Shown: piece after piece, positions 24,992 through 35,774 of the stretch
Layout of the letters: each line of letters begins with the position of its first letter
How positions within the stretch are numbered: position 1 is the stretch's first letter
Source: Oscillospiraceae bacterium
GTDB lineage: Bacteria > Bacillota > Clostridia > Oscillospirales > Oscillospiraceae
Direction of reading: 5' to 3'
DNA length: 36,576 nt
Assembly: GCA_031281255.1 (NCBI GenBank)
Contig: JAITFR010000198.1
Span: forward strand, 1 to 36,576
Translations under genes and position numbers: made by a program
Notes under the pieces: generated by a model
Told to the model about the DNA's origin: nothing
Database searches by the model: none
What the model saw: only the letters and a program-made list of their open reading frames with translations

Positions 24992-25020
24992 TTGATATAT
25001 TTCGATAATTATACTATACT
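24992..25020 (+). promoter_or_regulatory. Predicted sigma-A-type promoter for tRNA-Leu
   Basis: TTGATA (24992-24997) - 17 bp - TATACT (25015-25020), 13 bp upstream of the tRNA 5' end. Confidence 0.6.
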
Positions 25021-26048
25021 ACAAAAGGAAAATGCCGGTGTGATGGAATGGTAGACGTGATGGATTCAAAATCCATTGGGAGCAATCCCGTGTCGGTTCG
25101 AGTCCGACCACCGGTACCAAAGTCAGATAATCCGAACCGCATTTCCCTGTGAGAGATGCCTTCGGATTTATCATTAAAATTTGATTTTTTGTACTGATTG
25201 CTGTTAATTAAACTAATTGATTCAGGAAGTTTTAATTTTGGGCTAAAGAAAATATATTCTTGTGCGAGACGTTTTTCCATTAAACTATAATTAATGTCTA
25301 AATAACTCTTTTTGCATTTATTATAAAGTTTACTAACCAACTCACAAACATCATATGTAACAATCCATTTACGTTTACATTGTAATATTTCTTTTGAAAG
25401 CCTGACATGATCTTCTTCGTTAAATGAGTTTTTATAAAGACTTGAACCTTTTTGCACATATGGTGGATCAAAAATTATGAATACCTTTCTGTATTTTACT
25501 AACTCAGTTTTCAAAAAATCGATTGCGTCCATATTATATAAACTAATACTATTACGTTTTTGACCAATCGCTACGATTTTGTTAATTAAATCATCTTTAT
25601 TAAATCGAGCATTTATCTTGTATGTACCATTTTGACTTTTTCCACCAATCATGCCCCCGTTCAACACACCAGAAACATTTGTTCGATTCAAAAAGAACGC
25701 AGAAAAACCATACTCTATCATGCTATATCCTCGAGGATTTAAGAATATCTCTTTTTGGATATTCCATGTGTTTATTGAAATCTCTGTATTTTTTACTAAC
25801 TCAATAAAGTCATCATTATTATTTAAAATTGAATACCAAAAAGAATATATTGCTTTGTCAAAATCATTAATGACAATCCTCTTTACATCGTCATTTAGTA
25901 ACAATTTCAAAGCTAACCCCGAACCGCCCGCAAATGGCTCAATATATGTTTGTCCGATTAAGTCATTATGCTCTATGATTTTTTTAATGTATGTATATGT
26001 TTTTGTTTTTCCACCCGGATATCTCAATGGAGATGGTGTACTTGGCAT
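25014..26048 (-). CDS. D12-class DNA adenine N6-methyltransferase (Dam-like); 3' end of ORF runs antisense through tRNA-Leu
   Basis: SPLRYPGGK, YIEPFAGGSGLAL, FIIFDPPY motifs. The C-terminal peptide GTGGRTRTDTGLLPMDFESITSTIPSHRHF is antisense tRNA-Leu, so the real functional end is uncertain. Confidence 0.88.
   Translation of the reverse strand: MPSTPSPLRYPGGKTKTYTYIKKIIEHNDLIGQTYIEPFAGGSGLALKLLLNDDVKRIVINDFDKAIYSFWYSILNNNDDFIELVKNTEISINTWNIQKEIFLNPRGYSMIEYGFSAFFLNRTNVSGVLNGGMIGGKSQNGTYKINARFNKDDLINKIVAIGQKRNSISLYNMDAIDFLKTELVKYRKVFIIFDPPYVQKGSSLYKNSFNEEDHVRLSKEILQCKRKWIVTYDVCELVSKLYNKCKKSYLDINYSLMEKRLAQEYIFFSPKLKLPESISLINSNQYKKSNFNDKSEGISHREMRFGLSDFGTGGRTRTDTGLLPMDFESITSTIPSHRHFPFVV
25034..25119 (+). 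tRNA. tRNA-Leu (anticodon CAA), 3' CCA encoded
   Basis: gccggtg...caccggt acceptor stem; anticodon arm atgga-TTCAAAA-tccat; variable arm gggagcaatccc; T arm gtcggttcgagtccgac; terminal acca. Confidence 0.92.
25129..25168. other. Stem-loop just 3' of tRNA-Leu (terminator-like)
   Basis: aatccgaa-cc-gcat...atgc-c-ttcggatt near-continuous stem, with a T-rich stretch further downstream on + (gattttttg). Confidence 0.45.
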
Positions 26049-26061
26049 ACTGTCACTCTTT

Positions 26062-27759
26062 CTATTCTGCCCACATCTTTGGGTTTATTTCGTGGAATTC
26101 TGCAACTTTTAAGAATAGTATTCTTAAGTCATTATAGAATTTATCCATACTATCCTTATTTATTGATGATTCTATCCAATTTATCAATACCAATTCAAAA
26201 AATTGTTTATGTTTATCAAATACATTTTTATTTAGCTCCCTTTCGACACCCTTTATAGATTCTCCTACAGCAATCTTTTGATTGAGCGTTTCTGAAATGT
26301 TCAATATATCCGGAAGAATATCGTCTCTGTACTTCGTTTTTATGTAACCTAAATCCATTATATCCTGATGTGTCCAAAAAACATCGTCTGCATAAAACAT
26401 GTTCTTTGAATGTTGCATAGCAAGAACCTCGGGAGAGCATTCACCCGGTAGAGTAATAGTATATCTGGAAAGGTCTCGTTGGCTATGTCTGTCACCGTCC
26501 AGGATACAAATTGACCGCATTGTTGTCCTTAGCAAATTTCTGTCATTAAAAATACCTTTCAAGTTGTCAGCTCCTAGACTAGCCTCAACAAGATGAAAGA
26601 AACTTCTTACTGTGGCAAAAGTTGTTGTATGATTATAAGTAAAATTATCAAAAATTAAATTAAGAAAAATTCTTGCCTCATTATCTTCTGAAAAAACAGG
26701 TATTGACCTATTTATGTATAATTGGTCTCTTATCAACTGATTCAAGTTCATTTTGATTTTATATATATCTGGGTCTTCCATTTTTTTAACTGAATTTATA
26801 TTATCAATAAGATATGCAACATTATATTTCTTTTTTAGTGCGTCTTCTAGTAAAGACAAACTGTGTGAAGTAAAAATAATTTGTATTTTATATTCATTAC
26901 TAAATGTATTAAGAAGCTCCATCAGTTTGATTTGAAATGATGGATGTAATGTAGCATCAAGTTCATCAATTAACAAGACACTTTCGACATCATTATTATG
27001 TGAAATACTCTGATAATAATACTTTAATGAAATTAACGATGTAATAATGATATATAGATTATCTTCACCCGCAGAAATTGTATTAGAATCCACACCTATA
27101 CTATCAGTTTCAAACTCTGAACGAATCTTTATATCTCCCATCTTTTGTGAATGGGAATCAATATATCCAACATTTAGACCTGTAAACTTATGGTATAACT
27201 CGGAGATTTCCTTTTGATACTCATCAGGAAGACGTGTGTTCAGTTTTCTAATTGCATCATCATTATTGTATTCACCATAAGGAAATAATTGCGACAACCC
27301 TAAATAAATAACAGGAGCATATGGAAGAGATTCTTTTTTACCCACTCCATAACTTGGTTTTACTGCATATCGTGTGCCAGTGATAGTTTTTGAAATATGC
27401 CTCCTAAAATTTAACGTATAGCCATCAGTATACTCGACTGTAAACAAATTTCCTTTGATTCCAAAAGCTGGGTCGTTGTATTTCTTATCTCCACGAGTCA
27501 AGGTCTCAACTTTTGGATTTACAACATTATTTACGGCTCTGATTACTTTTAGACATTGGTTATTATTAACCCATGGACATCTATTCGCAGAAGCAGTAAC
27601 GGCTTGAAATGAATTACTAATCAAATGTAATATTGATGACTTACATGTTCCGTTTGTACCGGAAAGTATGTTAACTCCTTTGCAGAAGTTGAAATCCAAA
27701 TCTTTTAGTTTCCTGTATTGTGTAAATTTTATGTTTTTTATCATACGACTGCTCCACAA
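26062..27759 (-). CDS. AAA (AAA_21/OLD-like) ATPase with TOPRIM-like C-terminal region
   Basis: NILSGTNGTCKSSILHLISNSFQ, SAGEDNL, VLLIDELDATLHPSFQ, QIIFTSHS; then VFSEDNEARIFL ... CILDGDRH, consistent with TOPRIM Glu and DxD motifs. Start may be internal (MIKNIKF). Confidence 0.75.
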   Translation of the reverse strand: MWSSRMIKNIKFTQYRKLKDLDFNFCKGVNILSGTNGTCKSSILHLISNSFQAVTASANRCPWVNNNQCLKVIRAVNNVVNPKVETLTRGDKKYNDPAFGIKGNLFTVEYTDGYTLNFRRHISKTITGTRYAVKPSYGVGKKESLPYAPVIYLGLSQLFPYGEYNNDDAIRKLNTRLPDEYQKEISELYHKFTGLNVGYIDSHSQKMGDIKIRSEFETDSIGVDSNTISAGEDNLYIIITSLISLKYYYQSISHNNDVESVLLIDELDATLHPSFQIKLMELLNTFSNEYKIQIIFTSHSLSLLEDALKKKYNVAYLIDNINSVKKMEDPDIYKIKMNLNQLIRDQLYINRSIPVFSEDNEARIFLNLIFDNFTYNHTTTFATVRSFFHLVEASLGADNLKGIFNDRNLLRTTMRSICILDGDRHSQRDLSRYTITLPGECSPEVLAMQHSKNMFYADDVFWTHQDIMDLGYIKTKYRDDILPDILNISETLNQKIAVGESIKGVERELNKNVFDKHKQFFELVLINWIESSINKDSMDKFYNDLRILFLKVAEFHEINPKMWAE

Positions 27760-27904: not shown

Positions 27905-30900
27905 TCACCCTGCCCAAGCATAGCCCATAGTTGCTTGGTCTACGATATGCTGGAAAAGTGAATCACTTTTCACTGCGAAGACTTCTCGATTATAACTGTT
28001 AGGTAAAAATAAATTCAAGCAATCAACTATTACTGACCGCACACGTTCTTTAGGCTGTGAGTCATTGTACCAGCCAACAACAAATAGTTCATTTTTTCTG
28101 GAAATTAATGTTGAATATAGTTCCTTTGCTGCTAACTTGACACGCTTTTCTTCATCTTTGGTAAGCTTATCCTTGCGGAGCAAATCATAGATTTCGAGCT
28201 CGGCTTCAGTCAGTTCCTCTTTTATGTGACGTTCTTCTTCCGTACGCAACTCTTCCATAAATTTGATGAGTTTTTCATAAAAATCATCGTTCTGAGAACC
28301 ACCGGCATTATATTCATCAATTATATTACTGAACCGCTGTGCAAAATCTGTACGTGTTACATTTTCTTTTAATAAAAGTTTAAGCTTGTTTTCTATGAAA
28401 CCTCGCAGATTGGATATTTCAAGGTTTCTGTTTTTTAATCGTTTGAACATCTCGCGAATCTCATCAATATCTATTTTTGATATATCGATTTCTTTTCCGC
28501 TGTCTTCGGTGATGTATGCCCGTGACTCCTCAGCTACCAGTATACTTTGATCTAGTAGTAAGTTGATTTGCTCTTTTGCCGCTTCAAGTTTATCCGGTCT
28601 TATTTTCCCATCAACAATTGCACGCAAGTACATTATAGCTTCTTTGAATTTTGCATCGAAATCCATTTTAAAAATTTCGGGACGGAGAGATTCATACAGA
28701 TTATCAACTGTGTTGGAAAGCACCTTAAACTCGTTTTTTACATCATCGTTTCCAACAATAACATTTGCATAATCATAGAATAAGGATTGATTTCGAAATA
28801 CATCGTCCTCCGCAACAACAAGGTTGAGATCGATGTTAAGTTTGTCACAAAAGTTTAGTGTTATTTCGATTGATTCATTAAGCTTTTCAAGAAGATGATC
28901 AATGTTTTTCGCCGGGTCATCATCGTCTTCATTGGCAGCATACTCTGCCAGAGCACGTTTTAAGTATTTAAATATGTCAAGGAAATCAACGATAATACCA
29001 TTTTGCTTGCCGGGGAAAACGCGATTTGCTCGTGCGATTGCTTGCATCAATGTATGACCTTTCATTGGCTTATCTAAATATAGAGTAGATACAGATTCTG
29101 CATCAAATCCGGTCAACCACATAGCACAGACAAAAACAAGTGCAAGCGGATGGTTTGGATCTTTAAAATTGTCTTCAATATCGTGACCATGCTCATCCGA
29201 TGTATTCATACGCTTACGATGCAGAAGTATAGATAATCCCTCTTTCTTGAACTTCTCCTCTTCATCGGAACCTTCGCTAAGAACAACAGCCATCTCAATA
29301 AAGCGCATATAATCTATAATTTCTTTTATATTGAGCTTTTCTTTCTCATCATTTGTCTCTAATATCTCTTTGTTTAGCTTTTTGATTTCCTCTTGCCAAT
29401 AGAAAGATACCTTGTCATATAGCTTCACAGCAGTGAACTTATCCACCGCAATAACCATACCTTTGCCATGAAATCCTCTGCGTGGGAAATGGTAAACAAT
29501 GTGCCGGGCAACAGCATCCAATACATCGTCACGTTTAATTATTTCAAGTTCTTTTGCATAATTATTTTCAAGCCGTTTTTGTTCCGCATCAGTAAGGTCT
29601 TCTCTTTCCAGTATTTCGGTGAAGTCATCGTTAAGAAATTCATTGCCGAGTACAACCTCCGGTACACGTTTTACATAATAAAGAGGCACAGTGGCATTAT
29701 CCTTGATTGATTCTGCAAAGTTATATTCACTCACATAGTCTCCGAACCAAGAATTTGTGAGGCGTTTGCTACCAAGTAACGGCGTACCGGTAAATGCCAT
29801 ATATTGAGCATTTGGCAATCCGGTTCTCATGTTTTCAGCCAGTTCTTTATATTGCGTACGGTGTGCCTCGTCAACAAATACGATAATATCGTCTCGTTCA
29901 GATAGTATAGGGTATTTTTTACCCTTCTCATAACCAAACTTATGTATAAGCGTAAATAAAATACTTTTATTTGTTTTAAGCTCATCACGAAGAGCCTGAC
30001 GGTTTGCGGGTTGCACTTTTTCTTCGTCACTCATAAATCCGGATCTCAGAAATGTCTTATATATTTGTCCATCTAAATCATCCCTGTCTGTCACAATCAA
30101 AAATGTATAATTGCCATAACACTTACGCTTTATTTTCCTCGCAAGCATTACCATTGAATAACTTTTGCCACTTCCTTGCGTGTGCCAAAACACTCCGAGT
30201 TTACCGTGAAGCTCCTCGCGATTATTAAACGCTTGAAAAGCTTTGTTTACTCCATGAAATTGGTGGTTCTTAGCAATTATTTTTTTGCTTACTCCGCTGT
30301 CTCGTTTTTCAAAAAGAATAAAGTTCTCAATATAATCAAGTAATGTTTCAGGTTTGCATAATCCTCGAAGGAAGTATTCAATACTAACGCAATTGTCTCT
30401 TATTGCTTTTCGGTCAGGATTTTCCTTCTCGTCTTCTATCTTTAACCACTCAAAGAAGTGCTCATATCCTGTGGAAGAACTGCCAAGTCGGGTCTCCATT
30501 CCATTTGAAAGCACACAAATTTGATTATAATTAAACAACCATGGAATATCACGGCGGTAATTGATCAAGTTATCATCATAAGCGTTTTTAACATTGTACA
30601 CTGAGTTTTTGAGTTCAATAAAGACAAGTGGCAAGCCATTGACGAAAATGATTATATCCGGTCTGCGATAATTCATTTTTCCTTGAATCCACATCTGCGT
30701 AGCAACAATAAAACTGTTATTCTCAGGTACATCGAAATCGATAAGCCGCAGTAAGCCCGAAGTTTCGCGCCCATCCTTTTGGTATGACACCTTGACTCCA
30801 TTGCGTATTTTATTGTAGCAGTGATAATTATCGCCTAATGGATCGCCGTGGGAGTTGTGGCATAAATCATCTGAGATTCGTTTTATAACATCTATTGGAA

Positions 30901-31102
30901 TATCCGGATTGAGGTCACAAAGTTTTGAGTATAGTATTTCCGGTAATACAACTTGCTTTTTATTTTCACGATCAGTACCATCAGGCAGTGTCTCCGGTTT
31001 TTCGGTAAAACAATCAATGTGCCTGTAAGAAGATGCATACTCAGTCACAAGCAACTCAACAGTTGCTTTTTCAATCATATCTTCTGTTATGGTTTTCGGC
31101 AT
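27905..31102 (-). CDS. hsdR: Type I restriction endonuclease subunit R
   Basis: RRPDIIIFVNGLPLVFIELKN (PD-(D/E)XK), WHTQGSGKSYSMV, IIVFVDEAHRTQY, LTGFDAESVSTLYLDKPMKGHTLMQAIARANR. Confidence 0.95.
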   Translation of the reverse strand: MPKTITEDMIEKATVELLVTEYASSYRHIDCFTEKPETLPDGTDRENKKQVVLPEILYSKLCDLNPDIPIDVIKRISDDLCHNSHGDPLGDNYHCYNKIRNGVKVSYQKDGRETSGLLRLIDFDVPENNSFIVATQMWIQGKMNYRRPDIIIFVNGLPLVFIELKNSVYNVKNAYDDNLINYRRDIPWLFNYNQICVLSNGMETRLGSSSTGYEHFFEWLKIEDEKENPDRKAIRDNCVSIEYFLRGLCKPETLLDYIENFILFEKRDSGVSKKIIAKNHQFHGVNKAFQAFNNREELHGKLGVFWHTQGSGKSYSMVMLARKIKRKCYGNYTFLIVTDRDDLDGQIYKTFLRSGFMSDEEKVQPANRQALRDELKTNKSILFTLIHKFGYEKGKKYPILSERDDIIVFVDEAHRTQYKELAENMRTGLPNAQYMAFTGTPLLGSKRLTNSWFGDYVSEYNFAESIKDNATVPLYYVKRVPEVVLGNEFLNDDFTEILEREDLTDAEQKRLENNYAKELEIIKRDDVLDAVARHIVYHFPRRGFHGKGMVIAVDKFTAVKLYDKVSFYWQEEIKKLNKEILETNDEKEKLNIKEIIDYMRFIEMAVVLSEGSDEEEKFKKEGLSILLHRKRMNTSDEHGHDIEDNFKDPNHPLALVFVCAMWLTGFDAESVSTLYLDKPMKGHTLMQAIARANRVFPGKQNGIIVDFLDIFKYLKRALAEYAANEDDDDPAKNIDHLLEKLNESIEITLNFCDKLNIDLNLVVAEDDVFRNQSLFYDYANVIVGNDDVKNEFKVLSNTVDNLYESLRPEIFKMDFDAKFKEAIMYLRAIVDGKIRPDKLEAAKEQINLLLDQSILVAEESRAYITEDSGKEIDISKIDIDEIREMFKRLKNRNLEISNLRGFIENKLKLLLKENVTRTDFAQRFSNIIDEYNAGGSQNDDFYEKLIKFMEELRTEEERHIKEELTEAELEIYDLLRKDKLTKDEEKRVKLAAKELYSTLISRKNELFVVGWYNDSQPKERVRSVIVDCLNLFLPNSYNREVFAVKSDSLFQHIVDQATMGYAWAG

Positions 31103-31105
31103 GGG

Positions 31106-31579
31106 TTATACCTCATCGTTAAACCTTGATCCTACTCTCAGAGTTGCTTTCGGATAGTTGCTTCTTATTCCTTTTAGAGTTTTCATTTCTTGATTGTATC
31201 TAGTGTTTGGCACATTGCTCTTTATAACAGCTCTCAAATGAGGTGTATACTCATAAATTTCTTTATGCAGTAGTCTGTATGTATTACTAAGCTGATTGAG
31301 AGCTTTCTTCCATCCTTGACTTTTTAGTTCAATATAATATGATTTCATGCAGTCAGGAAACATCATAAGGTAATCGCAGCGAATTTCATCCACTCCGGAT
31401 ATCAAACCATTGTCAACTTTATATTTAAGTACTGTTATTTTGCTTTTATTGCCAATTGTGTAAGATACATTATTTTCTTTAACAGTGGGTCTTGATTCAT
31501 TAGTAACTTTGAGACAGTCGTTGCACCCACTAAGTTTAAGTCTTTTTAAATGACAATCCAGAAACCCATTACAAATCAT
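31106..31579 (-). CDS. Small hypothetical protein with PD-(D/E)XK-like signature, partner of the adjacent ATPase
   Basis: Probable start MICNGFLDCHLKRLKLSG at 31579 (ORF listed from 31654), overlapping the ATPase 3' end; GVDEIRCDYLMMFPDCMKSYYIELKSQGWKKALNQL: D...ELK nuclease-like pattern. Confidence 0.6.
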   Translation of the reverse strand: MICNGFLDCHLKRLKLSGCNDCLKVTNESRPTVKENNVSYTIGNKSKITVLKYKVDNGLISGVDEIRCDYLMMFPDCMKSYYIELKSQGWKKALNQLSNTYRLLHKEIYEYTPHLRAVIKSNVPNTRYNQEMKTLKGIRSNYPKATLRVGSRFNDEV

Positions 31580-32705
31580 GCTTGACCTCCAAATCAATGA
31601 GGTCTGACATGCCTTTATTAATAGTTTCAGATACCGCATCAATTTCTTCAGCATCTATCAAGCCTGTCTCTTCGTCAATAATGCTACGATATGAAAAATC
31701 ACCATTACGCTCTAGCATAAAAGCACAAACATCTTCCGGTTTGAGCCGTTTCATCGGTTCAACAATTACTTTGTTATCTTTTATCTTATTTTCAACCTTT
31801 GCGGAGTGAATCAACAAATTTGCTGATGTTAATATATACGGGCTGTGAGTGGTAATAATGAAACGACAATATGTTTTGTTGATTATGAAAGCAATAAGTT
31901 CCATTAAGAGTTTTTGCGTTGCTGGAAAAAGATGAGCTTCGGGTTCTTCAATAATAATTGTAAATCCTTTTATATCACATAGGACAAATAATAGAGAAAT
32001 GAGGATATAAAGGCTTTCTTGTTGCCCGGAAGATGCTGATGTTATTGGTATTGAAACGCCATCACTATTAACCAGCCGTTCATTTCCGCTTTCGTATCGA
32101 TATTGACCTTTTAGAATGCTTTCCATCAGGTGGATTATAACTTTTTTTACATCTTCAGTGTGTTGAACTGCTGTGAGTTCCATATTCCTTTTTAACACCT
32201 CATTGAATGGTTTTGTAAAATCTTTACGCACAGCATCTAAGAAAAGCAGATAATTTTCAAGAAAAGGATCAACATGGATATTTTTTGCAGCAGCATAACT
32301 TTCAAAAAGCAACGGTATTACACTACGACCTGCAGGGATATACATGGGATATTCACCACCGGTTTTCAAAGGTATATAATCACCGGGGGGAGAAAAAACT
32401 AAATCATTATTTTCTGCATTAAAAGAAAACGAAAATACATTGGTGAAATAGTCAATTGTGCCATATTCATAGTTTTTGCGAAAATACTGATGTACAGCCT
32501 CAGCATGTTGTCTAAGCGAGTTGTTTTTTTCCCCAATTAAATCTAGCTCCACACAACACTCACTAAGCATACTGAAATATATTGCTCTAGCAATCGTACT
32601 TTTTCCTGTTGCTTGCTCTCCTATAAGAATGGTAAGTTTTTTATCTAAACTCATTTCAAATAATCCATCAATAGGACCTAAATTTTCAATTTGAATTTTA
32701 CTCAT
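31569..32705 (-). CDS. AAA/ABC-like ATPase (AAA_21-type) encoded between hsdS and hsdR
   Basis: ILIGEQATGKSTIARAIYF (Walker A), SASSGQQESLYIL (signature-like), TIIIEEPEAHLFPATQKLLMELI (Walker B), FIITTHSPYIL. Confidence 0.88.
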   Translation of the reverse strand: MSKIQIENLGPIDGLFEMSLDKKLTILIGEQATGKSTIARAIYFSMLSECCVELDLIGEKNNSLRQHAEAVHQYFRKNYEYGTIDYFTNVFSFSFNAENNDLVFSPPGDYIPLKTGGEYPMYIPAGRSVIPLLFESYAAAKNIHVDPFLENYLLFLDAVRKDFTKPFNEVLKRNMELTAVQHTEDVKKVIIHLMESILKGQYRYESGNERLVNSDGVSIPITSASSGQQESLYILISLLFVLCDIKGFTIIIEEPEAHLFPATQKLLMELIAFIINKTYCRFIITTHSPYILTSANLLIHSAKVENKIKDNKVIVEPMKRLKPEDVCAFMLERNGDFSYRSIIDEETGLIDAEEIDAVSETINKGMSDLIDLEVKHDL

Positions 32706-32778
32706 TTTGTACCTCCATTGTCACTTAATAATAACAATTGCTTACTGTTAGGTCAAGTTAATACTATTATATTACTAA

Positions 32779-33930
32779 CTACACCTCCAACTTTCCGCTC
32801 ATCAAGCGTGGTAGAAGCAAATCTCGCTGATGTGCGAGGTTTTGGGATTGGGTTTGTAGTTTAATTTTTAAATTGTATATCTCACGGGTAATGTGGCTGT
32901 ATTTTGCTAATAAATCGTATGTTGGCACTACTACTTTACACCGACATAGATTTTCTATTGTTATTTGAGATTGAGCTGCACCAGTATCTAAATATCGCAA
33001 ATTTTGAAGTTGAAACATTTCATACAGATAAAACATATACTCATCATTATATAGTAAAAATGCTATTGATAAATTTGTCAAATAACAAAACGGTGGGGAT
33101 ATTCGCACTTCGCCTGTTCCTCCAACACCTCTTGCGATTAGAACAAGATGTTCTTTTTCAAACATATATTCACTATAACGACCTGTTATTCTATATCCTG
33201 AAAATATAGGATAACCGCTTTCTCTCAACTTATCTACGTTTGGCATAGTGCCATATTTAAAAGCAGAAATATCTTTTAGCCGCTTAACCTCCCACCCTTC
33301 CGGCAATCCATTCACAATCTTCACACCCTCATACCCCGGAAATCGCATCCGCACGAACCATTCATTATATATCTCTCTTGCCGCTTTTTCGAGTAACGCG
33401 ATTCGGCGATTGTTGTTTTCGATTGCATCATCGTAAGCGGAGAGGATGTCAGCAATTCGGGCTTGAGTTTTTAATTGTGGCAAAGCAATCGAAAGCTTTT
33501 TCAACATTTCTGTTGTTATACTTCCGCGTGTACTACTCGCATCCGAAATAACTCTCAGTTCATCATAACGTAAAGTTAAGTTATAGAATAAGTATCTATA
33601 ATCTAATTTTGAATGGTCAACTCTTAAAGCAATCACAGATTGGTTTATAAACATATCTCTAAGAACAATTGACGTTTGTCCTCGTGTATTACCTTGTCCC
33701 GCACACGCCATAACAATATCGTTCTTTTGCGCAAGTCTTGTAGATGAGTTATCGACACCTTCTTGTGTTATAGTTCTATCGGTTGTGAATAAAAAACGCG
33801 ACCGTGTTTCACCAGAAGATAGCCATAATAAATCACCGTTCCAATATGTTGATTCTGAAGTTGCTGGTGTGCCTCCACTGAATATAGCTTCACACAGATA
33901 ACCTAGCTTTGCATTTTCCCACTTGCTCAT
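32779..33930 (-). CDS. hsdS: Type I restriction-modification specificity subunit S
   Basis: Two TRD-like halves with central PQLKTQARIADILSAYDDAIENNNRRIALLEKAAREIYNEWFVRMRFPGY and C-terminal RDLLLPRLMSGKLEV. Confidence 0.93.
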   Translation of the reverse strand: MSKWENAKLGYLCEAIFSGGTPATSESTYWNGDLLWLSSGETRSRFLFTTDRTITQEGVDNSSTRLAQKNDIVMACAGQGNTRGQTSIVLRDMFINQSVIALRVDHSKLDYRYLFYNLTLRYDELRVISDASSTRGSITTEMLKKLSIALPQLKTQARIADILSAYDDAIENNNRRIALLEKAAREIYNEWFVRMRFPGYEGVKIVNGLPEGWEVKRLKDISAFKYGTMPNVDKLRESGYPIFSGYRITGRYSEYMFEKEHLVLIARGVGGTGEVRISPPFCYLTNLSIAFLLYNDEYMFYLYEMFQLQNLRYLDTGAAQSQITIENLCRCKVVVPTYDLLAKYSHITREIYNLKIKLQTQSQNLAHQRDLLLPRLMSGKLEV

Positions 33931-35645
33931 AAATCACCCACCAACGAGCGCAGGTTATCTTCAATCGTCTTTTCCAGCTCATGCGCTTCGGCATTTAGCT
34001 CGGTAAGCTCCGTGTTCAGAGAACGCATCACTGCTTTGAACTCTTCTTCGGTCAAGCCGTCATCTTCTATTACCACACCTACATAACGACCGGGGTTTAG
34101 AGAATAGTCCTGGTCTATTATGCCGTCCTCACCTTCGACTTTTGCCACTTTACATAACCCGACAACATCAACATATTTTCCCTCAGGGAATCGAGAGGTT
34201 AACCAGTCGATTTGCTCTTGCCAGTATGCTTTTGGTAGAATGTCTTCATCGTCTGACATTTCCGGTGCATTGGTAAATGAATTGCGGTATTCGTCGAGCA
34301 GCAAAGCAAACTCGTCTGTTTTACCTTCATAAAGCCGAGTTATTATGGCAAGGTTTTTTATTTGCTCTTCGGTAAACTTACGATGAGCTCTTGTTATTTG
34401 TGTAAAAATATTACGGGCATCAACAAACAAGATTTCATCTTTGTGTGCTTTGGCTTTATCGAAAAACCAAAGAGTTGCAGGTAATGTAACGCTTGTAAAC
34501 ATATTCGTCGGTAACGTCACCATTTGACTGATGACACCGCTTTCTATCAGTCTTTTACGGATTTCTTTTTCACTATGCCCGGCATCAGATGCTGAGTTTG
34601 CCATAACAAGCGCAGCACGACCAATGTCATTGAGAGATGTAGCAAAGAGATTTATCCATAGATAGTTTGCATTTGGCACAGTTTCTTTCGCATCGCCTTT
34701 TGCTTTTTTTGTTTTATTCTGCGGTACACCGAATGTATTGAAACGAGGTTGTGGCTTTACTTGGTCGAGTTCCACTTCATCAACGTTAAACGGCGGATTT
34801 GCCATTACATAGCTAAATTTCTCAAAACAATTATATGGATCCCGATAATATGAATTTGCTTCGGTAATGCTGCCGCGGATGTTGTTTAGAACAAGATTCA
34901 TCTTTGCAAGCTTCACAGTTGCGCCTGTCTTTTCTACACCATAAGCGCGTAAATTGATGTTACTACCCCTTGCGCTGTGATCAGCGATATAATGAGCTGC
35001 TTGTACAAACATGCCACCGCTACCACAAGCAGGATCAAAGATTTCACCTTCTGTCGGAGCTAAAACTTCAACCATATAACGCACAACGGTTGATGGCGTG
35101 AAGAATTCTCCTCCACCTTGACCTTCGGCAAGAGCGAATTCTCCAAGGAAATATTCGTATATCTCTCCGAAAATATCAAGACTTACATCGGTAGGAATAT
35201 CCTTAAACACCTTAAACAATTTTGCTAAAACAAGTGGATCGTCTTCACTGTTAACGCTGTAATAAACATCTTTAGGTAGTGTATCTTCAAGATCAGTATT
35301 GTATTTTTCTATTTCTTCCATAGCAGTCTTAGTTTTTTCTGCAAGGTTTTCAGATTCCGGTAAATTTAAGAGAAAGTCAAACTTAGCCTCCGGTGGTAAA
35401 TAAAAGCCGCATTTCTCAATAGCTATTTCATTTATTGCGCGTTCTGCACGAGAACCTTTTATCTTGTTATGTTCAGCATTGATAGCGGATTCATATTGAC
35501 TATATTTCCCTTCAGCAAAACGGAGGAATATAAGGCCCAATATTGGCGTTGCATACTCTGTGGATTTTAATCCGGAGTTGGCACGAAGTTGATCTGCACC
35601 CTGCCAAAGACGATCCTTTAAGTTTTTAAGCTGTTTATTAGTCAT
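33927..35645 (-). CDS. hsdM: Type I restriction-modification DNA methyltransferase subunit M
   Basis: Probable start MTNKQLKNLKDRLWQGADQLRANSGLKSTEYATPILGLIFLRFAE at 35645 (ORF listed from 35723); FDPACGSGGMFVQAAHYI; VMANPPFN; ATGA overlap with hsdS. Confidence 0.95.
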   Translation of the reverse strand: MTNKQLKNLKDRLWQGADQLRANSGLKSTEYATPILGLIFLRFAEGKYSQYESAINAEHNKIKGSRAERAINEIAIEKCGFYLPPEAKFDFLLNLPESENLAEKTKTAMEEIEKYNTDLEDTLPKDVYYSVNSEDDPLVLAKLFKVFKDIPTDVSLDIFGEIYEYFLGEFALAEGQGGGEFFTPSTVVRYMVEVLAPTEGEIFDPACGSGGMFVQAAHYIADHSARGSNINLRAYGVEKTGATVKLAKMNLVLNNIRGSITEANSYYRDPYNCFEKFSYVMANPPFNVDEVELDQVKPQPRFNTFGVPQNKTKKAKGDAKETVPNANYLWINLFATSLNDIGRAALVMANSASDAGHSEKEIRKRLIESGVISQMVTLPTNMFTSVTLPATLWFFDKAKAHKDEILFVDARNIFTQITRAHRKFTEEQIKNLAIITRLYEGKTDEFALLLDEYRNSFTNAPEMSDDEDILPKAYWQEQIDWLTSRFPEGKYVDVVGLCKVAKVEGEDGIIDQDYSLNPGRYVGVVIEDDGLTEEEFKAVMRSLNTELTELNAEAHELEKTIEDNLRSLVGDL

Positions 35646-35774
35646 TCTCTCTCCTAACGCTCTCCGCTCGTGGATAAACACATAATGATTTCCTCCATCT
35701 TGCATCCTATTATAAACCTGCATAGCTTCTGTTTCAAGATATTTATTCGCAGTCTTGTAATCCTCGAACTCATT

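Follow-up and report, generated by a model that had tools for sequence, protein, structure and literature searches.

Among the described anti-phage systems, two groups are relevant to the locus analyzed here. The first is PD-lambda-5, composed of PD-Lambda-5_A and PD-Lambda-5_B (Vassallo et al., 2022), whose anti-phage activity was demonstrated experimentally in E. coli, where it affected all but one of ten phages (PMC9519451). The second comprises the OLD nucleases, in which an N-terminal ABC ATPase is followed by a C-terminal TOPRIM domain with an E / DxD / K set of residues. Their classes 1-5 (P2 Old, TsOLD, GajA, retron effectors, AriA/AriB, Cran1) are of the stand-alone, helicase-, retron-, PARIS- and Sulfolobales-type, and none of them is defined by a methylase partner in the literature examined. 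Proteins with the same domain order, such as HEC-04 and IbfA, function as stand-alone ABC ATPase-TOPRIM proteins that work without a methylase (PMC12111858). In Gabija, GajA is combined with GajB, a UvrD/PcrA/Rep helicase, whereas PARIS consists of AriA and AriB or a fused AriAB protein. The gene pair described below appears to link two defence families that are usually kept apart, the PD-lambda-5 methylases and the OLD-type ATPase-TOPRIM nucleases.

The pair is located in a 36,576-nucleotide stretch of DNA from an Oscillospiraceae bacterium (contig JAITFR010000198.1 of assembly GCA_031281255.1), the whole of which is referred to as the window (Table 1). As proposed in the first-pass annotation, the two ORFs share the minus strand and are separated by only 13 bp (26049-26061), which lie between the stop codon of the ATPase gene and the ATG of the methylase gene. 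The most probable start codon of the ATPase gene is the ATG at 27744 and not the upstream TTG, because a GGAG sequence precedes this ATG and relatives of the protein start at the same point.

Table 1. Positions of the gene pair, its sequence motifs and its neighbors in the window.
Feature	Position	Strand	Remarks
ATPase-TOPRIM protein gene (TOPRIM-like C-terminus)	26062..27744	-	560 aa, ATG start; ORF extends to TTG at 27759
Walker A GTNGTCKS (residues 29-36)	27637..27660	-	G29, N31, K35 invariant in 48 relatives
Walker B / D-loop LLIDELD (residues 257-263)	26956..26976	-	D260, E261, D263 invariant in 48 relatives
TOPRIM-like alpha/beta core (residues ~340-452)	26389..26727	-	E353-D354 after strand 1, D416xD418 after strand 3
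C-terminal helical region	26065..26388	-	Invariant K506 at 26227-26229
D12-class N6-adenine DNA methyltransferase, PD-Lambda-5_B family	25014..26048	-	344-aa ORF; PADLOC, Pfam PF02086
Methylase catalytic motif IV DPPY	25458..25469	-	Found in 72/73 paired methylases
Methylase run-on tail	25014..25199	-	Antisense to tRNA-Leu and terminator; relatives without tail
tRNA-Leu(CAA)	25034..25119	+	Opposite strand to methylase
Type I R-M operon hsdM-hsdS-AAA-small ORF-hsdR	27905..35723	-	Context, outside the pair

The methylase aligns through residues 1-283 with positions 1-284 of the 291-residue PADLOC model PD-Lambda-5_B (PDLC04018; E 5.9e-112), matches the Pfam family MethyltransfD12 (PF02086; E 1.3e-19) and retains intact RYPGGK, EPFAGG and DPPY motifs. 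Judged by these matches, it is a full-length member of the already named PD-Lambda-5_B family. Its family sequence comprises residues 1 to ~283, whereas the last ~60 codons of the ORF represent a read-through across the terminator and gene of tRNA-Leu(CAA), giving a total of 344 aa as compared with 265-319 aa in other intact paired methylases. This run-on tail might impair the methylase.

Its partner, by contrast, fits as a whole no PADLOC, NCBIfam or Pfam family model and is, by this measure, unnamed. Pfam returns only generic AAA_21/AAA_15 matches, the NCBIfam scores fall far under the cut-offs (PtuA, 49.6 bits versus 500), and the PADLOC matches, to PtuA, HEC-04, NsnB, GajA and ATPase-Toprim_I-B, are partial and roughly equal (50-65 bits). 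It nevertheless has the N-terminal ABC ATPase with Walker A and Walker B motifs by which OLD-like ATPase-nucleases are broadly recognized. The first-pass annotation had further ascribed a TOPRIM character to its C-terminus, quoting the motifs EDNEARIFL and CILDGD. Both motifs are present and carry residues that are invariant across 48 relatives; in these sequences, E353, D354, D416, D418 and K506 are the only invariant positions of the C-terminal domain. An AF2 model of the isolated domain (pLDDT 94.4) shows the canonical TOPRIM order b-a-b-a-b-a-b, with the E after b1 and the DxD after b3. Moreover, a profile of the full-length family aligns with OLD proteins (E 1e-17 overall) such that E353 and D416/D418 are in register with the OLD catalytic E and DxD. 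In BpOLD, metal is bound by E400/D455/D457 and K562 serves as a catalytic residue (PMC6755086), and K506 may be the counterpart of this lysine. The predicted topology, the invariant catalytic set and the in-register alignment make it likely, if not proven, that the C-terminus is a TOPRIM domain, although a Foldseek search of the PDB with the isolated domain model yielded no significant match. The C-terminal profile alone aligns weakly with OLD proteins (E 0.047) and gave only spurious matches in a sequence search of the PDB; the Pfam TOPRIM models did not match the ATPase, and a scan of the window's genome with the Pfam model OLD-like_TOPRIM returned no match. For a model of the full-length protein (pLDDT 89.7), the matches to GajA, the Eco8 effector and TsOLD reach E ~1e-10, but since the TM-scores are low (~0.3), they would mostly reflect the ATPase part.

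Although the ATPase shares its domain architecture with several established defence proteins, the pair differs from each of the corresponding systems in its composition. Its similarity to HEC-04 and IbfA is only partial, with a profile match that spans the junction of the ATPase and TOPRIM parts (residues 257-449; E 4e-17, 60 bits), and these proteins have no methylase partner. Like Gabija, it is a two-gene unit containing an ATPase-TOPRIM protein, but membership was rejected, with a methylase in place of the helicase, the methylase/tRNA and the type I R-M operon as neighbors of the ATPase gene and GajA matches that are partial (~54 bits); the difference from Gabija anticipated by the first-pass annotation is thus borne out by the lack of a UvrD-type helicase. 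PARIS likewise unites an ABC ATPase and a TOPRIM domain in one system and occurs near R-M genes. However, the AriAB match covers only residues 184-326 (E 4e-12, 43.7 bits), and a methylase is found instead of an AriB-type gene, which is absent from the neighboring genes, so the pair was not assigned to PARIS, and the suggested kinship reduces to generic ABC-ATPase similarity. Retron type I-B (OLD class 3) was dismissed as well, because the domain calls of the neighbors include no reverse transcriptase.

The closest described system is PD-lambda-5, with which the pair shares the methylase but not the partner: the ATPase-TOPRIM protein takes the place of PD-Lambda-5_A. An identity of the two partners was rejected, as the best PADLOC matches of the ATPase are other ATPase models, and the window's genome, which is 74% complete, contains no PD-Lambda-5_A detectable by the model or by an alignment of 11 PD-Lambda-5_A sequences. 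Because the methylase belongs to the PD-Lambda-5_B family, one half of the pair already has a name, and the pair is best viewed as a partner-swapped relative of PD-lambda-5 and not as an unconnected new pair. Our literature searches, which covered few subscription papers, retrieved no description of such a methylase-ATPase pair.

The methylase/ATPase unit is conserved well beyond this locus, as expected for the two-gene module initially proposed. Scans with the ATPase identified 67 loci in genome contigs and 17 in viral contigs, which were clustered at 90% identity. A PD-Lambda-5_B-like methylase gene lies within 600 bp of the ATPase gene in 33 of the 36 close-clade clusters with enough flanking DNA, with the ATPase gene first in 27, the methylase gene first in 3 and the two genes on opposite strands in another 3 cases. 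In the remaining three clusters (L049, L053, L058), the methylase gene is 1.7-3.9 kb away, and the DNA between it and the ATPase gene contains either PD-Lambda-5_A or a HerA-like gene (Pfam DUF87) together with a second gene whose product is related to a NurA-like protein; none of the 36 is devoid of a methylase. In a distant clade, with 24-30% identity, the methylase is adjacent in 23 of the 31 clusters that had sufficient flanking sequence, while six distant relatives lack a D12 methylase; two of these belong to type I R-M operons, and another two have C5 methylases as neighbors (assigned from a sequence motif in L086). Overall, the pair is spread over about ten phyla plus prophages, including Bacillota, Spirochaetota, Fusobacteriota, Pseudomonadota, Deferribacterota, Actinomycetota, Mycoplasmatota, Myxococcota, Fermentibacterota and one archaeal MAG, and it is also present in Citrobacter and Streptococcus phages, with the Streptococcus copy next to an integrase. 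The distances between ATPases correlate with those between the associated methylases, with r = 0.64 in the close and r = 0.95 in the distant clade, values to which host relatedness contributes and which were reached in none of 2000 permutations. The ATPase-methylase pairs are co-inherited. In one case, from Fusobacterium vincentii (L017, 8001-9663), an intact methylase gene is accompanied by an ATPase gene that is divided between two ORFs.

A reverse search with the methylase in 300 genomes of the same phylum (Bacillota) returned 14 matches, including the window's own. Within flanks of ~1.5 kb, these loci contain the ATPase in 7 of 14 cases, PD-Lambda-5_A in at least 4 and both in 2. Given that all 36 close ATPase clusters have a methylase, but the ATPase accompanies only half of these methylases, the dependence seems to be stronger on the side of the ATPase.

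Such an imbalance would be expected of a nuclease that relies on a methylase for protection. We therefore give an even chance to the idea that the pair constitutes a two-gene, R-M-like anti-phage defence based on a methylation-protected nuclease. In such a system, the D12 methylase would mark its recognition sites in the genome of the host (or of a host prophage) with N6-methyladenine, thereby presumably conferring self-protection, and the OLD-like ABC ATPase would use its C-terminal TOPRIM nuclease to cut or degrade unmarked DNA, with phages as the probable target. ATP would gate the nuclease of the partner ATPase, and sequence specificity could be supplied by the methylase or a methylase-ATPase complex. 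We infer both the restriction of DNA and a need for the methylase to tolerate the ATPase from the association of the two genes. The carriage of the pair by prophages and phages counts in favor of a defence role, which the anti-phage effect of PD-lambda-5 supports by relationship only. On the other hand, the pair shows no obvious component for target recognition apart from the methylase, and abortive infection, in place of restriction, is often the mode of action of known OLD-type effectors, both of which count against an R-M-like mode of action.

Accordingly, the ATPase-TOPRIM protein could instead be a suicidal effector, either a DNase or a tRNase like AriB, that is held in check by the methylase or its methylation, acting as inhibitor or infection sensor, and released once a phage interferes with methylation or with the complex. 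This possibility, which we consider doubtful but worth keeping in mind, agrees with the abortive mode of OLD/TOPRIM effectors in retrons and PARIS (PMC10568477, PMC12409363) and with the description of PD-lambda-5 as a compacted R-M and abortive infection (Abi) system (PMC9519451), and an obligatory methylase association would also fit a toxin and its antidote. However, the relatives without a D12 methylase are found near other DNA methylases or R-M operons, a pattern more readily reconciled with the marking of DNA than with a specific protein antidote.

Apart from its association with the ATPase, the methylase is found in several other settings. In P2-like prophages of E. coli, it is combined with PD-Lambda-5_A and no ATPase, the canonical PD-lambda-5 arrangement. 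Among 97 methylase loci, a set gathered mostly by way of the ATPase that includes near-copies and some short flanks, 65 have the ATPase and the methylase without a detectable PD-Lambda-5_A nearby, and 16 have all three genes together. These 16 loci, along with the convergent orientation of the ATPase gene and PD-Lambda-5 in the Vibrio phage ValB1MD-2, would be expected if the pair were a part or degenerate form of PD-lambda-5, with the ATPase as an accessory and PD-Lambda-5_A lost in the window. Yet, we regard this scenario as unlikely, considering that the 65 loci come from many phyla, that PD-lambda-5 of E. coli manages without the ATPase and that PD-Lambda-5_A was not found in the 74%-complete genome of the window. 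Less probable still, and already largely refuted, is the notion of two independent defence genes merely co-travelling in islands and prophages, because, despite the variation in gene order and strand, the adjoining genes in 33 of 36 close clusters and the matched phylogenetic distances go far beyond loose island linkage, and, PD-Lambda-5_A aside, every other gene family is present in at most 4 of 55 loci. Chance adjacency was rejected on the same two grounds, and a universal third gene because PD-Lambda-5_A, although recurrent, is limited to a minority of loci.

Mapped onto a tree of 78 methylases, the partner switches repeatedly, with 13 changes for the label 'ATPase', at least 7 of which are forced by well-supported branches, implying that partners were swapped. 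As far as these sequence comparisons go, the methylase is the module that stays constant, while its partners are interchangeable: the ATPase, PD-Lambda-5_A, both, or HerA-NurA-like genes. It appears about equally probable, in our estimate, that the pair does or does not represent a distinct, widespread and unnamed defence system, a class of methylase-dependent OLD-type nucleases built around a D12 methylase of the PD-Lambda-5_B type, with exchangeable effectors (OLD-like ATPase-TOPRIM, PD-Lambda-5_A with an apparent ParB-like motif, HerA-NurA-like genes). If so, the pair would define a methylase-partnered OLD class and offer a simple two-gene setting for the standing question of how OLD nucleases distinguish self from foreign DNA. 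The exchange of partners also suggests that there is a larger modular family to which PD-lambda-5 belongs.

Several arrangements of these genes deserve separate mention. The operons in L049, L053 and L092 contain, in a row, genes for a D12 methylase, a HerA-like ATPase, a NurA-like protein and an ATPase-TOPRIM protein, and thus resemble a larger relative of the pair. In ValB1MD-2 (L022), PD-Lambda-5_A is split into two ORFs, followed by PD-Lambda-5_B. An alignment of PD-Lambda-5_A proteins revealed N-terminal NPR and V-x-GNRR motifs that are common to the family and reminiscent of ParB-like domains; no Pfam match supports a ParB-like domain in PD-Lambda-5_A.

The module was probably inserted at tRNA-Leu(CAA). 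Synteny with a congener (L130), including an identical tRNA-Leu, ends at position 25122 of the window, at the 3' end of the tRNA gene, and the congener continues beyond this boundary with an unrelated peptidase gene. From the methylase onward, the DNA is thus specific to the lineage, and one of its boundaries coincides with the tRNA-Leu 3' end; a second module boundary and an integrase were not found. Other congeners hold partial copies of the tRNA end (e.g. G006:C91), which suggests that it serves as an insertion hotspot.

On the other side of the pair, ~160 bp separate the hsdR stop codon from the ATG of the ATPase gene. The first-pass annotation had likened this proximity to a type I R-M operon to the typical setting of PARIS. 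The adjacency itself holds and recurs in several unrelated loci (the window, L062, L065, L067, L070 and L082), with the ATPase gene of L070 even placed between hsdM and hsdS, but it is not a general property of the pair. Within the operon of the window, the AAA ATPase gene between hsdS and hsdR (31569-32705, minus strand) has its best PADLOC matches to AriA (3e-31) and PDC-M29A (2.5e-27), and the small ORF overlapping it (31106-31654) resembles PDC-M29B (E 2.7e-6). The region 31106-32705 on the minus strand is thus a candidate for a second defence pair, embedded in the type I R-M operon.
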